33,998 nt of DNA from Hyphomonadaceae bacterium (GTDB lineage Bacteria; Pseudomonadota; Alphaproteobacteria; Caulobacterales; Hyphomonadaceae), in contig JALEGE010000126.1 of assembly GCA_022760335.1 (NCBI GenBank), forward strand, positions 1 through 33,998, written 5' to 3'. This document shows positions 11,336-22,379 of this stretch, piece by piece. Below the pieces are notes generated by a model. It searched no databases. It was not told where the DNA came from and worked only from the letters and a program-made list of their open reading frames with translations. The translations under genes and the position numbers were made by a program. The stretch's first letter is position 1. Each line of letters begins with the position of its first letter.

Positions 11336-12238
11336 CTAGCCTTTAAGAACCTCTACCATGGTCGTGCCCAAACGGGCAGGGCTTGGCGACACTTTGATGC
11401 CAGCCGATTCCATGGCCTCGATCTTGGACTCCGCATCGCCTTCACCGCCCGAAACAATGGCACCGGCATGACCCATGGTGCGCCCGGGAGGCGCGGTACG
11501 GCCTGCGATGAAGCCGGCCATCGGCTTCTTGCGGCCCTTGGCGGCCTCATCCTTGATGAATTGCGCGGCCTCTTCCTCGGCACTGCCGCCGATCTCGCCG
11601 ATCATGATGATGGATTCGGTCTCATCATCGGCCAGGAACATTTCCAGCATGTCGATGAACTCGGTACCCTTCACCGGATCCCCGCCAATGCCGACGGCGG
11701 TCGACTGGCCGAGGCCTTCATTGGTTGTCTGGAACACCGCTTCATAGGTCAGCGTGCCCGAGCGCGAGACGATGCCGACATTGCCCTTCTTGAAGATCTT
11801 GCCCGGCATGATGCCGATCTTGCACTCTTCCGGGGTCAGCACGCCGGGGCAGTTCGGGCCGATCAGGCGCGAGGAGGACTTGTCGAGCTTGGCCTTCACA
11901 CGGACCATGTCCATGACGGGCACGCCCTCGGTGATGCAGATGATCAGCTCGATGCCGGCATCGATGCTCTCTTCAATGGCGGCTGCCGCGCCTGCCGGCG
12001 GGACATAGACCACGGATGCGTTGGCGCCGGTCGCCTCGCGGGCCTCACCGGCACTGGCAAAGATGGGCAGTTCGACGCCCTGGTCGGAGACCCAGTTTGT
12101 GCCGGCCTTTTTCGGATGCGTGCCGGCGACCATCTGGGTGCCGAAATATTCCAGCGCCTGATTGGTGTGGAAGGACCCGGTCTTGCCGGTCAGGCCCTGA
12201 ACAATGACTTTGGTGTCTTTGTTGACGAGAATGGACAT
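11336..12238 (-). CDS. sucD: Succinyl-CoA ligase (ADP/GDP-forming) subunit alpha
   Basis: This subunit binds CoA and carries the histidine phosphorylated during conversion of succinyl-CoA to succinate with NTP formation. The 300 residues include the N-terminal CoA-binding Rossmann domain ([21 protein letters not shown]) and the ligase domain. The active-site histidine is about H257 in [25 protein letters not shown] lies just upstream of the ATG. The gene normally follows sucC directly, but here it starts 18 bp after the stop of a VapC-like toxin gene. Its transcription therefore probably depends on readthrough across inserted genes, or on a promoter within them. Confidence 0.98.
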
Positions 12239-12256: not shown

Positions 12257-12676
12257 CTAGGCAAGAAAGTCTTCGATGAAAGGGTTGCACACACGGACAG
12301 AGCCATAGGTCTGTCCGTGGTTGAGGTCTTCGGTGTAGACAAGGTCGAGATCGGCGCGCTCGGCAGCGCGAAGGATCAGCCCATCGAAATGCGAAATTTC
12401 GTAGCGCCGCGAAATCATGATGCCTTCCAGAACATCCGTCGGCGAAAGCATGATGACGGTTTCATCTTCAAGCGAAGAGATCCACCGATAGGCTGTATCG
12501 GCAGCGTAGTTCAGTTTCTTCAGCATCACGCCGTAAAGCTCCAGCATGACCTGCGTGGACACGACAATGGCCCGCGATTGCAGGAGAGCACGGGCGATAT
12601 CGCGCTTTTCGGGCTCCGGCCCGTCGCTCTCTGCCGCATAGGCAAAGATATTCGTGTCAAAGAAGGCCGCGTTCAC
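12257..12676 (-). CDS. vapC: PIN-domain toxin of a VapBC-type toxin-antitoxin pair
   Basis: The 139-residue protein has the PIN-domain ribonuclease fold signature: D7 in FFDTNIF, E46 in QVMLELYGV, D98 in HFDGLI, and E116/D117 in VYTEDLNHG. These acidic residues coordinate Mg2+ in VapC toxins, which usually cleave tRNA or rRNA. The active site looks intact. The start overlaps the end of the antitoxin gene by 20 bp, typical of translational coupling in such pairs. It sits 18 bp upstream of sucD, in the same direction, inside the suc operon. The exact RNA target cannot be read from the sequence. Confidence 0.9.
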   Translation of the reverse strand: MNAAFFDTNIFAYAAESDGPEPEKRDIARALLQSRAIVVSTQVMLELYGVMLKKLNYAADTAYRWISSLEDETVIMLSPTDVLEGIMISRRYEISHFDGLILRAAERADLDLVYTEDLNHGQTYGSVRVCNPFIEDFLA

Positions 12677-12996: not shown

Positions 12997-13719
12997 CTAT
13001 GGGATCAACTCTTCCGCAATCTGAAGAACCATTTCCGCTTTGTTGATCCCCGCAACTCGCCTGAACACCCCCATATTGCGCATAAGATCTTGAAGCTGGC
13101 TGCCTGTTAGGTTTTGTAGCATCCAAGTGCGCTTCATGTTGGCAGAAAGGATGGCCTTAACCAATTCAGGTTTGTTCAGGGTCGAAAAACCGCTGATCTC
13201 GCAGGTTCGGCACAAGTCTTTCAGATCGTCCTTACTCATCAAATCCAAGAGCTCCGTTATAGAAAACGGCGCAGCTGATAAAGTCGAAGCTGGTTCATCT
13301 TCCTTAGAGATAAGAGAAGGCATCGAAAGTCGGTCCGCAAGACGCATGATCAACTTCGCCCACATCTTGGACATACTTAACGTAAGTCCCTCTTCTAGAG
13401 TCAAAAAATTGACATTGACAAAACTCAAAGGGAGATCTTTGGGATCGATAGATTCAATAGCAATTGGAATCAGTTTTTGGTGGTTTTGTGCCATATGACA
13501 CTCTCGCACGCACCATTCCTTTTTAAGAGATGCCGCGCTCCACAAAGCTAACACGATTTTAGAATCTCGAATTGCCTTATCCAGAACATCAGGAAATATA
13601 TCACCAGCTTCTATACGCTCGACATCAAAAAAGACCTTCAGTCCCCGCCTTTCGAGGTCTTTCTTCATTTCTTGCGCTATTTCGCCATCATTCCTTGAGT
13701 AGGAAATAAAGACATCCAT
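12997..13719 (-). CDS. TIR-domain protein with two C-terminal SAP-like helical repeats
   Basis: The 240-residue protein opens with a TIR domain (about residues 1-130): DVFISYSRND, KVFFDVERIEAGD, and VLALWSAASLKKEWCVRE. E73 in the W69-C-x-x-E73 pattern occupies the position of the catalytic glutamate of NAD+-cleaving TIR enzymes. After a linker (about 131-152), two related helix-rich segments follow: LKDLCRTCEISGFSTLNKPE (166-185) and its surroundings, and LQDLMRNMGVFRRVAGINKA (209-228). Both look like SAP or Rho-N-type helix-extended-helix units that can bind nucleic acid. That resemblance is by eye only. GGGGGAC upstream serves as ribosome binding site. Base composition is much lower in GC than the suc genes on either side, indicating transfer. 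TIR effectors commonly serve in anti-phage immunity. No Thoeris ThsA or other known partner is adjacent; vapBC follows after 55 bp. Confidence 0.88.
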   Translation of the reverse strand: MDVFISYSRNDGEIAQEMKKDLERRGLKVFFDVERIEAGDIFPDVLDKAIRDSKIVLALWSAASLKKEWCVRECHMAQNHQKLIPIAIESIDPKDLPLSFVNVNFLTLEEGLTLSMSKMWAKLIMRLADRLSMPSLISKEDEPASTLSAAPFSITELLDLMSKDDLKDLCRTCEISGFSTLNKPELVKAILSANMKRTWMLQNLTGSQLQDLMRNMGVFRRVAGINKAEMVLQIAEELIP

Positions 13720-13753: not shown

Positions 13754-14947
13754 CTACCCCTTCACTGCCGCCACAATCTTCTGGGCGGCATCGTCCAGGT
13801 CATCCGCCGGGATCACGTTGAGGCCGGAATTAGCGATGATGGCCTTGCCGGCATCGACATTCGTGCCCTCAAGGCGCACGACCAGCGGAACCTGGAGATT
13901 GGTTTCCTTCACCGCCTGCAGGACGCCCTCGGCGATGACATCGCATTTCATGATGCCGCCGAAGATGTTGACAAGGATGCCCTTCACGTTCGGGTCCTTC
14001 ATGATGATCTTGAAGGCCGCGGCCACTTTCTCGGCATTGGCACCACCGCCGACATCGCAGAAGTTCGCCGGCTCCTCGCCATAGAGCTTGATGATGTCCA
14101 TGGTCGCCATGGCGAGCCCTGCGCCGTTCACCATGCAACCGATCGTGCCATCCAGCGCGATATAGGCGAGGTCCCATTCAGAAGCCTCGATTTCCTTCTC
14201 GTCTTCCTCGGATTTGTCGCGCAGTTCCATCATGTCCGGGTGGCGGAACAGGGAATTGCCGTCAAAGGAAAGCTTGGCGTCGAGCACGCGCAGATGGCCG
14301 TCCTTCATGATGATCAGCGGGTTGACCTCAAGCATGCTCATATCCTTCTCGACGAAGGCCTTGTAGAGGATCGGGAAGAGCGCCATGCCGTCGGTGCGCG
14401 CGGCATCGGCCAGCTCCAGCGCGTCGCAGACTTTCGCGGCATCGGCATCGGTCATGCCGGCCAGCGGATCGACATTGATGGTGTGGATCTTTTCCGGCGT
14501 GTCATGGGCGACCTGCTCGATATCCATACCGCCCTCGGTGGAGACCACGAAGGCCACAGTACCGGTCGAACGGTCGACCAGCAGGGAGAGATAAAGCTCG
14601 CTCTCGATGTCCGCGCCATCCTCGATATAAAGGCGGTTGACCTGTTTGCCGGCCGGGCCGGTCTGGGCGGTCACCAGCGTGTGGCCGAGCATGGCCTTGG
14701 CATGGGCGACGGCCTCATCACGCGAGAAGGCCAGGCGCACGCCGCCCTTTTCGCCGGCTTCCGGCTCAATGAACTTGCCCTTGCCGCGCCCACCGGCATG
14801 GATCTGGCTTTTCACGACCCAAAGCGGACCGGGCAGACTGTCGACTGCGCCTTCAATGTCATCGACGGAAAGAACCGGTGCGCCATTGGCGACCGGAGCA
14901 CCAAAGGATTTCAGGACCGCTTTTGCTTGGTATTCGTGAATGTTCAT
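13754..14947 (-). CDS. sucC: Succinyl-CoA ligase (ADP/GDP-forming) subunit beta
   Basis: The beta subunit binds nucleotide and succinate and completes succinyl-CoA ligase with SucD. The 397 residues begin [16 protein letters not shown], the standard start, followed by an ATP-grasp domain with [16 protein letters not shown]. The C-terminal ligase domain has [15 protein letters not shown] and the [14 protein letters not shown] segment. Length and motifs are normal. It is the first suc gene of the cluster; a possible promoter lies about 75-100 bp upstream (15022-15049) and a GAGG ribosome binding site precedes the ATG. The next gene is not sucD but the inserted TIR gene, 34 bp downstream. Confidence 0.98.
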
Positions 14948-17727: not shown

Positions 17728-19200
17728 TCAGCCCGGGGCAAAAGTGCCATGAAAGCCAAGTGGCCAGGCATACCGGGCGGCAAAGCTCGCCACCGGGCCT
17801 TCGGAAATATCGGCAACATCGAAGACATGCACCTCGCTGCGTCCACTGGCGATGTTCAGTGCAGTTCCAACAAGCCAGGCATCATGCTCGCCTCGTCCTC
17901 CGGGCTTGGCAACGAAGAGATGTTCCTCCGGCACGCGCGAGGCGCCATAGTCGAAATGGCTCGTCTTTCCGGACCGCCAGTCCATCAGCGAGACCTTTCG
18001 CGCGCCAGGGCGCCCCGGAGAACTCCCCCCGACCAGAGCTGTCAGGCGCCGACCCAATCCATGGAAGGCAGGGTGCACGACGGGAAACTCGCCATCAATA
18101 TCGGTCTTCTGAATTCGCGCGCGACCATCAGCCTCCACAATGATGCGAGACAGCACGCCATTGGCATCATCCTCAGCGGCGATATAGCGCCCCTGCATCA
18201 GATTGGTACCACCGCCAGACCCCAGAAAGGGTTCATCATAAAGCGCCACATCAATATGGATCGCGCCAGAGGCATCTTCCCAGGCCGCACCGGTGTGGAA
18301 GAAGGCATGGCCCTCAACCTCGGCGCTACGCCGGGAACTCATATCCGCCTTGTCGATGATGAGGAGTTTCAGGCCCTCTTCCGGACGCCATTGCAACGTA
18401 TCGACAAAGGGTGGAATAAACTTGGTCATCAGCCAGGGCTGGATCATCAGGATGAGATGCCGCTCGGTGATCGCCCAGTCATGCAGGTATGGCGTGACAC
18501 CAAGATCAAGCATGTCGAAGCTCTGAACCGCACCTTTCGGCGAGATCCGGTAGATTCCGACTTTCGAACCCGCCACGGCAAGATTCCAGACTGTGCCGTC
18601 AGGTTCCACTTTGGGATGGGCAAGAAAGGGCATGCCTTTCAGATCCTCGCGCCAGCTGCGTGCCCCGAGCGTTTCCAGTGTGATGGGATCCAGCTCCATG
18701 GCTGAGCCGGCCTCCCAAAGCGCATGCAAGCGCCCATCCACCACCAATACGGAGGTGTTGGCCGCATTGGCATCGTCCACACCCATTACCGGATAGCTCT
18801 CATCGCCAGCACTGCCGAAGCCGGGCGCGAGGAAGCGCCCAGCCGCCTGCTCGGAACGGTGCTTGTTTGTCGCGACGAACTTGCCGGTATGAACGGCTTG
18901 GCCATCCCTCAGAGCGATGCGCTGGACCATGCCATCGCCATCGAACCAATGGTCCAGGGTTTCCCCACCATAGCTGAACCAGGCTGGGCCATTGCGATAG
19001 AGCGTACCTGAAAACCCATCCGGCAAGCGGCCAGAAATCAGGTCCATGCTTCGAGGCGCAAACCCACCTGCCGGAGCATTGGCATATCCAATTTGCCAGT
19101 TTGGCGCGCCAGGTCCGGTGGTAAAGCCATGGCCGGCCAGGGCGGCGGCACCTGCTGTGGCACCAAGCGCAGCGAGAAGAGAGCGGCGGGACATCTGCAT
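17728..19200 (-). CDS. Tat-exported carotenoid oxygenase (RPE65/CCD family)
   Basis: Members use non-haem iron to cleave a double bond in carotenoids or related compounds. The 490-residue product starts at 19200, with AGGAGA about nine bases upstream; the longer upstream frame runs over the preceding gene. A twin-arginine signal (SRRSLLAALGATAGAAALAG, about 4-23) predicts export. The four iron-binding histidines are likely H195 (FLAHPKVEP), H240 (YLHDWAIT), H302 (HAFFHTGAAW) and H484 (GFHGTFAPG at the very C-terminus). A second-shell glutamate is likely in GEFPVVHP. It follows the DUF2141 gene by 31 bp, so the two probably form an operon. The substrate is unknown; lignin-stilbene-type dioxygenases are also in this family. 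Confidence 0.93.
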   Translation of the reverse strand: MQMSRRSLLAALGATAGAAALAGHGFTTGPGAPNWQIGYANAPAGGFAPRSMDLISGRLPDGFSGTLYRNGPAWFSYGGETLDHWFDGDGMVQRIALRDGQAVHTGKFVATNKHRSEQAAGRFLAPGFGSAGDESYPVMGVDDANAANTSVLVVDGRLHALWEAGSAMELDPITLETLGARSWREDLKGMPFLAHPKVEPDGTVWNLAVAGSKVGIYRISPKGAVQSFDMLDLGVTPYLHDWAITERHLILMIQPWLMTKFIPPFVDTLQWRPEEGLKLLIIDKADMSSRRSAEVEGHAFFHTGAAWEDASGAIHIDVALYDEPFLGSGGGTNLMQGRYIAAEDDANGVLSRIIVEADGRARIQKTDIDGEFPVVHPAFHGLGRRLTALVGGSSPGRPGARKVSLMDWRSGKTSHFDYGASRVPEEHLFVAKPGGRGEHDAWLVGTALNIASGRSEVHVFDVADISEGPVASFAARYAWPLGFHGTFAPG

Positions 19201-20604: not shown

Positions 20605-21903
20605 CTACATGGAGACGGGCTCAACCTCCTGGGCCGGATCAAGATTGCCAAGCAGCTGATTCACAAAGGTAACATGGCTGCGCAGGCGATAGAGGTCGTC
20701 GGTGTAAGATAGTGGCACTTCCAGCTGGCCGATCTCTTCCTGCAGATTGCGCAGCTGGGTGCGTATGCGCTCGCGCGCCTCGCCGCTATCGGCTGCCCGG
20801 CCCTCTGCCTCCAATTGGCGCAAATCCTCATACCAGACATAGATCTTGCGGCGCACGCGCCAGCGATAGATTGGCGGCGCAGCCCGCACCAGTGGGAAGA
20901 GCAGCGTTAGCAATGGAATGGCCAGAACCCAGGCGCGCTCCAGGAAATTGGCCATGCCGAAAGAGAAATAGCGCCGCAAGGCCGAGGGACCATCGCGGTA
21001 ATACCGACGCGCCTCCGCAGACAGCGGCAAGTCGGTGCGCGCGCCCGAAGGGAATGTGTCTGGCGGGGACAGCTCTGTTCCAGGCGTGTGTATGGCATTG
21101 GCCGCATCCAGCAGAATGGCATGAATGGCCGGGTGCAGCTCGCTATCGACGCCCAGCTGCGCGACCGAGGCGATCATTTCCACATCCCGGGCTGGCAGAT
21201 CCCCGCCAATATCGACAACCCCGCGCAAGAGCGTGATTGGTGCAAGGGCTGGCGTGTGGCGGCTAAGCGCCGGGGCGCGCGGAAAGTCCATCAGGTCAAT
21301 ACCCTCAGCACGCACCAACTGCTCAACATAAGGTGCGTCAATGCCGGCGGAGAAAGTGGCAACATCAACCTCACCGGCAAGCAAGGCATCGGCTGCGGCC
21401 TGACCGCTGAGTGGCAGGCGGGTGGTGTCAGGCCAGGTGCCGCCATATTCGCCCTGCAAATGCAGGCTCAGCGCGCGCGTGCCCGAGCCTTCGGCCCCGA
21501 TGGTCATGCGCAAGGTGCGCAGATCAGCATAGTCTTGGGCGCCGGCTTCCGTGCGCACAAACACCCAATAGGGTTCATAGAACAGTCCGCCCAGGGCCAG
21601 GAGGCGTTCAGCATCCCCCTCGCTTGCGAGCCCGCCCTGGATCAAGGCGACATCGGCATCACCAACCGTCAGCAAGTGCAGATTTTCGATACTGCCTGCG
21701 GTGGAAAGCACTTCAACCTCCACGCCATGGTCGGCCAGCAAGGTCTTGTAGCGCTCGGCATAGGCGGCATAGGCCCCGCCGGGACTTCCTCCCGCAAACA
21801 CGATCTGTTTCGGCGGCGGCGGCTCTACAAAGCGCAGCGCGACAATCAAACCCAACACGGCCACCAGGGCCAAGGGCCAGTAAACCTTCAGGAAATCCTT
21901 CAT
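20605..21903 (-). CDS. TAXI-family TRAP-type solute-binding protein, membrane-anchored
   Basis: The 432-residue protein has an uncleaved N-terminal membrane helix (about 7-25). A TAXI-type periplasmic binding domain follows (about 33-320), with KQIVFAGGSPGGAYAAYAER, the glycine-rich opening typical of the family, and IGAEGSGTRALS. A second membrane segment (about 330-352) comes after the domain. The cytoplasmic tail (about 355-432) is basic and helical, likely a coiled coil (RERIRTQLRNLQEEIGQLEV). Standard TAXI proteins are soluble and paired with DctQM-type permeases, but no permease gene is visible here. It may therefore act as a ligand-sensing or adaptor protein rather than a transporter subunit. 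It ends 8 bp from the stop of the convergent LytTR gene. Confidence 0.9.
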   Translation of the reverse strand: MKDFLKVYWPLALVAVLGLIVALRFVEPPPPKQIVFAGGSPGGAYAAYAERYKTLLADHGVEVEVLSTAGSIENLHLLTVGDADVALIQGGLASEGDAERLLALGGLFYEPYWVFVRTEAGAQDYADLRTLRMTIGAEGSGTRALSLHLQGEYGGTWPDTTRLPLSGQAAADALLAGEVDVATFSAGIDAPYVEQLVRAEGIDLMDFPRAPALSRHTPALAPITLLRGVVDIGGDLPARDVEMIASVAQLGVDSELHPAIHAILLDAANAIHTPGTELSPPDTFPSGARTDLPLSAEARRYYRDGPSALRRYFSFGMANFLERAWVLAIPLLTLLFPLVRAAPPIYRWRVRRKIYVWYEDLRQLEAEGRAADSGEARERIRTQLRNLQEEIGQLEVPLSYTDDLYRLRSHVTFVNQLLGNLDPAQEVEPVSM

Positions 21904-22093
21904 CCCTGATCACCCAAACAATCAAAACTGCCAATGGCTATCGCGCCGCCGGGCCAGAGGCAAGCATTGCCCGGCCTTCATTCACTGCCCACAAATTGCC
22001 TCATGCGCGCCCTGCATGGCGCTTATTCCGAGCCGACAGTCGCAATCAGGCAAGGGGTTCCCACATTTCTTGCATAGCCAGATCAAGACCCAC

Positions 22094-22099
22094 AGGAGG
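22094..22099 (+). promoter_or_regulatory. Consensus Shine-Dalgarno AGGAGG of the small ORF
   Basis: AGGAGG lies five bases before the ATG at 22105. It is among the strongest ribosome binding sites in the window and decides the start of the 37-codon ORF. It is exactly complementary to CCTCCT in the downstream hairpin loop (22289-22294). Confidence 0.7.
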
Positions 22100-22104
22100 C
22101 GAGA

Positions 22105-22218
22105 ATGATGAATGGACAGACACTGACGCGTAGTTTCTCTCTCGCCGTGATGGCCAGTGCCGCTGTCATTCTGCTGGCAATGAGTTTGGCGCCCGGCGCA
22201 AGTCTTTATGCCGGATAA
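22105..22218 (+). CDS. Small hydrophobic peptide, 37 residues
   Basis: This ORF is too short for usual gene finders. It reads MMNGQTLTRSFSLAVMASAA and continues VILLAMSLAPGASLYAG before TAA. The middle (about residues 12-30) is hydrophobic enough for one membrane span or a signal peptide. Evidence for reality is the perfect Shine-Dalgarno AGGAGG at optimal spacing, the ATGATG start and the two strong hairpins that follow on the same strand. It is an isolated plus-strand unit between the divergent TAXI gene and the convergent purH gene. No homologue is recognised. It may be a leader peptide for the structured RNA downstream or a small membrane protein. Confidence 0.65.
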   Translation: MMNGQTLTRSFSLAVMASAAVILLAMSLAPGASLYAG

Positions 22219-22270
22219 ATAATTTCACAGCCCATGGATCCAATGACCGGCTCCATGCGTATTCTAGACA

Positions 22271-22304
22271 GGGTGCTGCCAAATCCCCCCTCCTCGCAGC
22301 ACCC
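22271..22304 (+). ncRNA. Hairpin with anti-Shine-Dalgarno (CCTCCT) loop, part of a putative sRNA or 3' UTR
   Basis: GGGTGCTGC (22271-22279) pairs perfectly with GCAGCACCC (22296-22304). The 16-nt loop is C-rich and contains CCCCCCTCCTC, including CCTCCT (22289-22294). Together with the next hairpin it resembles alphaproteobacterial sRNAs with CCUCC-type loops, for example the CcsR/cuckoo RNAs that lie downstream of small ORFs. That comparison is by memory of architecture, not by alignment. Confidence 0.5.
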
Positions 22305-22309
22305 TTCAA

Positions 22310-22364
22310 GGCCCCGCTCGACAGCTGCCCCCCCTCACCCCCGTCGAGCGGGGCCATTATATTT
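22310..22364 (+). terminator. Intrinsic terminator ending the small ORF/sRNA transcript, C-rich loop
   Basis: GGCCCCGCTCGAC (22310-22322) and GTCGAGCGGGGCC (22343-22355) form a perfect 13-bp stem. The 20-nt loop is almost entirely C with a central TCA. ATTATATTTT follows as a T-rich tract. It may also help to stop the convergent purH transcript. Confidence 0.75.
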
Positions 22365-22379
22365 TCGGGGGAGATTTTC

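Follow-up and report, generated by a model that had tools for sequence, protein, structure and literature searches.

What lies between a short open reading frame (ORF) and the convergent gene behind it in a Hyphomonadaceae genome: an RNA cut from the ORF transcript, a pair of terminators, a device acting on the ORF itself, or a small RNA gene of its own? We addressed this question at a locus within a 33,998-nt stretch of DNA (hereafter, the window), for which an earlier note had described a 37-codon ORF preceded by AGGAGG and followed by two hairpins with C-rich loops. All of these elements are present (Table 1). We think it probable that the locus comprises two adjacent plus-strand genes, one for a 37-aa membrane microprotein and, behind it, a predicted and separately transcribed small RNA gene. 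Regulators of this type are already known; the present example in Hyphomonadaceae is new.

Table 1. Features of the locus, followed by comparable hairpin tandems elsewhere in the family
Feature	Position	Strand	Basis and remarks
Conserved promoter-region block GCATGGCGCTTATTCCG (putative promoter role)	22014..22030	+	By eye; GCATGGAACCTATTCCG in Hyphomonas
Shine-Dalgarno AGGAGG of the ORF	22094..22099	+	Sequence; also in G002, absent from Hyphomonas homologues
37-codon microprotein gene, MMNGQTLTRSFSLAVMASAAVILLAMSLAPGASLYAG	22105..22218	+	Homologues, pN/pS; one membrane-spanning segment
ECF-sigma-type promoter-like site GGATC-N17-CGTA	22236..22261	+	Sole motif match in the window; 8/8 tandem-hairpin loci
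Candidate small RNA gene, ~95 nt (putative ends)	22268..22365	+	Bounds deduced: -10-like site on the 5' side, hairpin 2 on the 3' side
Hairpin 1, loop CAAAUCCCCCCUCCUC, anti-Shine-Dalgarno type	22270..22305	+	Predicted fold; stem double change in G002; Hyphomonas counterpart covaries
Hairpin 2, terminator-like, loop AGCUGCCCCCCCUCACCCCC	22310..22355	+	Predicted fold; near-identity in G002; Hyphomonas counterpart covaries
Stand-alone C-rich-loop tandem, T-rich tail	L085 925-1010, contig C25 of the window genome	-	Scan
CCUCC-type-loop tandem with T-run	L138 3686-3760, contig C79 of the window genome	-	Directly 3' of ompW-like gene
Tandem with CCCUCCCCCUC-type loops and T-run	L196, L197, L198, L200 (genus g4)		Behind hemerythrin-like gene

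The microprotein gene

Judged by comparison of homologous sequences, the 37-aa ORF is a real, previously undescribed microprotein gene of Hyphomonadaceae, conserved and under purifying selection. A single-sequence query found homologues in 46 of 105 genomes of the family (E ≤ 0.1), and a profile search gave matches down to E 1e-20; in other families of the order, the profile matches were weak (~1e-3) and mostly lay in much longer frames. The pN/pS ratio was 0.10–0.45 in 13 within-genus pairs, and 0.70 in the only cross-genus comparison (G000, the window genome, with G086), where synonymous sites were near saturation. The product has a single hydrophobic segment and a C-terminus of the form P-x-[PA]-S-L-[YF]-A-G, with P30, S33, and G37 invariant in the alignment. 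Searches of Pfam and NCBIfam with the microprotein matched no family. That both its position and its sequence are conserved argues against a type I toxin. Translation may start at the second ATG (22108), because another species of the window genus, G002 (UBA5336, contig DHQO01000004.1), also has ATGATG and the other homologues align from there.

By eye, a block GCATGG..CCTATTCC was recognized 5' of the ORF at a similar distance in genera g1, g4, g6, and g9; a sigma-70 site was looked for near the ORF and none was found. The gene for an NMT1/TAXI-like protein (window 20605-21903, minus strand) is divergent from the ORF in the window, G002, and G001, a third species of the genus; G001 and several Hyphomonas encode relatives of this protein. 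The peptide in the same divergent position in G001 is more distant and ends in VHAG.

Hairpins and promoter-like site downstream of the ORF

Hairpin 1 has a stem of 10 bp, including an outer A-T pair, and the loop CAAATCCCCCCTCCTC; hairpin 2 has 13 bp and the loop AGCTGCCCCCCCTCACCCCC. Of 200 shuffles of 22085-22366, 199 folded less well than the native sequence (z −2.8). Hairpin 2 had been labeled a terminator, and its stem-loop is indeed terminator-like, but its 3' tail, ATTATATTTT, is a weak U-run, so that a terminator role is plausible rather than strong. Eight genomes have tandem C-rich-loop hairpins 3' of the peptide ORF: G000 and G002 from the window genus, and six Hyphomonas (G086, G088, G090, G095, G109, and G110). 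The layout of the small RNA is kept in G002 and these six. Most homologous ORFs are without this layout downstream; in the remaining Hyphomonas, the ORF abuts the convergent gene almost directly, without such hairpins.

A site of the form GGA[AT]C-N17-CGTA is present at all eight tandem-hairpin loci, 17–21 nt past the ORF stop and 8–9 nt before hairpin 1, with varying spacers, and at none of the 31 other peptide loci; the motif was defined after viewing these same sequences, so this co-occurrence is a pattern and not a blind test. Three of the 31 (G010, G067, and G079) lack the site but do have C-rich-loop hairpins downstream, which makes site and hairpins separable. The variant in the window and G002 is GGATC, not GGAAC. 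Within a 1.50-Mb sample, about 43% of the window genome, the motif occurs 11 times, and the 10 occurrences besides this locus fall in open frames of at least 179 codons. In three genomes, the strict GGAAC motif showed no enrichment relative to the reversed motif used as control, and strict GGAAC-N17-CGTA outlined no regulon genome-wide. The EcfG form, GGAAC-N16-CGTT, adjoins the nepR/phyR locus of G001 and one of the two in G002; it was not seen at the nepR/phyR locus of the window genome, and where it was sought at the present locus, the other form (GGATC-N17-CGTA) was found. The site is likely an ECF-type promoter. We make this assignment at the level of promoter type, because the site differs from the nepR/phyR form and that form is absent at the nepR/phyR locus of the window genome.

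This site bears on how the RNA would be made. The earlier note, by its comparison with CcsR/cuckoo RNAs, hinted at processing from the ORF transcript. In that case, a single RNA from the ORF promoter would have its hairpins released by RNase, as for CcaF1-CcsR1-4. The ORF and the hairpins do share a strand, with about 50 nt from stop to hairpin 1; CcsR1-4, made from the ccaF1 3'UTR, provide a precedent (PMC8625941), and other C-rich tandems in the family are directly behind genes (ompW-like in L138, hemerythrin-like in g4). Nevertheless, a conserved ECF-type site at fixed spacing before the hairpins makes processing unnecessary and indicates separate transcription, and we regard an origin by processing as unlikely. 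Both routes could also operate together.

For a separately transcribed RNA, the comparison of relatives is informative. In G002, one stem pair of hairpin 1 has changed on both sides, from U-A to C-G, and the loop is still C-rich, and hairpin 2 has a stem identical to that of the window and one extra C in its loop; within the window genus, covariation thus comes from two species only, with one double change. In Hyphomonas, all six tandem loci share the same C-rich loop of 22 nt, TCCCTCCCGACTGAACCCTCCC, while the stems vary, and five base pairs show two-sided changes. Here, 96.9% of cells were paired, vs 31–55% in slid structures; with five distinct Hyphomonas sequences, 58 of 500 shuffles reached the two-sided pair count and none of 500 reached the covariation score. 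A Hyphomonas covariance model matched the six Hyphomonas loci strongly and did not report the window; its weak matches in g4 led to tandems in the hemerythrin 3'UTR. Alignment with MAFFT left the hairpins of the window and of Hyphomonas out of structural register, and no joint model was therefore made. Compensatory changes, proposed in the earlier note as a check in related genomes, are thus present in the hairpins of both G002 and Hyphomonas, and with loops conserved and stems covarying, the plus-strand anti-Shine-Dalgarno small RNA that it predicted is probable.

The same observations weigh against the hairpins being mere terminators, for the ORF, for the convergent gene, or for both, with C-rich loops incidental. 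Such a role would suit the terminator-like hairpin 2, the single C-rich-loop terminators seen elsewhere (e.g., L130, and, in Hyphomonas, behind other genes of L199/L201), and a TTTTT after the hairpin on the minus strand of G002, usable by purH. However, two hairpins side by side whose C-rich loops are conserved while their stems change, a promoter-like site immediately 5' of hairpin 1, and a layout that stays the same despite a different convergent gene (which we take to be purH in the window genus and rlmH in Hyphomonas, from our own reading of the frames rather than a family search) render this explanation quite improbable.

Working model and known small RNAs

In the model we favor, the microprotein gene would have its own promoter region, and an ECF-type sigma factor would start the small RNA at GGATC-N17-CGTA. 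Hairpin 1 would stand at or just past the RNA 5' end with its loop CCCCCCUCCUC exposed, and hairpin 2, with a loop that is C-rich too, would end transcription. We infer a trans-acting anti-Shine-Dalgarno activity of these loops: they may pair with G-rich or AGGAGG-type ribosome-binding sites of other messengers, which would block translation or, as in GsrN, sometimes raise it. Self-regulation in cis, in which the CCUCCU loop would cover the AGGAGG of the ORF itself, had been suggested from six complementary bases in the window and is hardly credible, as pairing of loop 1 with its own ribosome site ranks sixth among 25 window genes (five others pair better), loop 1 of G002 holds CCTCC only, and Hyphomonas ORFs with the same layout have no AGGAGG in their start regions.

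The nearest working model is GsrN, which we liken to the present RNA by build and not by sequence. GsrN is a Caulobacter small RNA activated by sigma-T (EcfG); its 5' loop is C-rich, it has a terminator hairpin, and its BLASTn matches were reported only within Caulobacteraceae (PMC5869019). As modeled, the present RNA shares with GsrN an alphaproteobacterial host, a stand-alone length of ~100 nt, a promoter of likely ECF type, an exposed 5' C-rich loop, and a 3' terminator hairpin, the last two being found here in the predicted structure. The site differs, being GGATC/GGAAC-N17-CGTA here vs GGAAC-N16-CGTT beside the relatives' nepR/phyR, and the present RNA lies away from the ecfG-nepR-phyR locus, behind a microprotein gene, and with a second loop that is also C-rich.

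RNAs of the CIN1/CcsR-cuckoo type are released from a messenger 3'UTR by RNase E, and in 2015 Reinkensmeier and Giegerich reportedly defined them by CCUCCUCCC in their hairpin loops. That motif in hairpin loops is used as a cuckoo-type criterion (PMC10746234), and CcsR1-4/cuckoo RNAs accompany a DUF1127 protein at the CIN1 locus (PMC10253847). The likeness to these RNAs drawn in the earlier note extends to a short ORF with adjacent hairpins behind it, whose loops are C-rich and of anti-Shine-Dalgarno type and whose stems vary; cuckoo RNAs have two to four such hairpins, and the present locus has only two, with stems that differ among G000, G002, and Hyphomonas. Beyond this, the comparison does not hold. 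The peptide is not a DUF1127 protein (no member of peptide set A3 matched DUF1127 in Pfam), PF06568 was absent from G000 and eight relatives, CCUCCUCCC was absent from both loops (CAAAUCCCCCCUCCUC and AGCUGCCCCCCCUCACCCCC), and the locus has its own promoter-like site. Lacking DUF1127 and the loop motif, the locus does not qualify as a member of CcsR/cuckoo, and its small RNA is better read as a separate gene than as a 3'UTR product of that kind. In addition, G000 has no more copies of CCTCCTCCC than the control (14 vs 14). Rfam at the gathering score returned no relevant match in the whole window, and relaxed searching gave best matches of E 0.66 and 1.5, far below the cut-offs.

Two other families share parts of this architecture. 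NfeR1 of Sinorhizobium (alpha-r14 family) silences messengers through anti-Shine-Dalgarno hairpin loops and likewise has adjacent hairpins with differing stems, but it has three, each with CCUCCUCCC, whereas the two here have other C-rich sequences (PMC10746234). Members of alpha-R8 (SisA-D, MmgR) combine an anti-Shine-Dalgarno pyrimidine motif with a Rho-independent terminator; their motif, UUUCCUCCCU, is single-stranded after a weak hairpin, whereas that of the present RNA is in the loop of a strong one (PMC12559287). Rfam gave no match to the present RNA.

It is doubtful that the PSLYAG microprotein works together with the C-rich-loop RNA as a functional pair, like CcaF1 with CcsR, in which an unrelated membrane peptide would replace DUF1127 and a dedicated ECF sigma would drive the RNA. 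For Hyphomonadaceae, without DUF1127/CIN1 in the tested genomes, the locus adds a candidate small RNA of stress type as well as a microprotein family that is conserved and unannotated. Only some relatives have the RNA, though the locus is otherwise conserved, which allows close species to be compared for gain or loss of a C-rich-loop regulator.

Other C-rich-loop tandems and neighboring observations

A loose scan for sibling tandems found five places on both strands of the 1.50-Mb sample. Random sequence matched in composition yielded 1, 5, and 1, so five is not significant as a count by itself. The evidence for function is the strength of both stems and their conservation in relatives, not rarity. 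Two of the five (L097 and L131) are weak and lie within frames of 376 and 397 codons; the three solid tandems are the present locus, L085:925-1010, and L138:3686-3760. Hairpin 1 of the L085 tandem, CACCGGTCCCTTCCCCTCCCGGTGAA, is identical in G000, G001, and G002, three species of the genus. The gene before the L138 tandem, ending in GIGFGYKY, is presumably ompW, and that before the g4 tandems presumably encodes a hemerythrin-like protein, both names coming from our reading of the frames rather than a family search. Tandems of this sort at unrelated genes within one bacterial family suggest that C-rich-loop RNAs form repeatedly.

L085 also carries a TPP riboswitch (Rfam RF00059) at 18292-18402 on the minus strand. 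In the window itself, genes on the minus strand for a PIN-domain protein (12257-12676) and for a TIR-domain protein with a Rho_N segment (12997-13719) sit between sucC-like (13754-14947) and sucD-like (11336-12238) genes.
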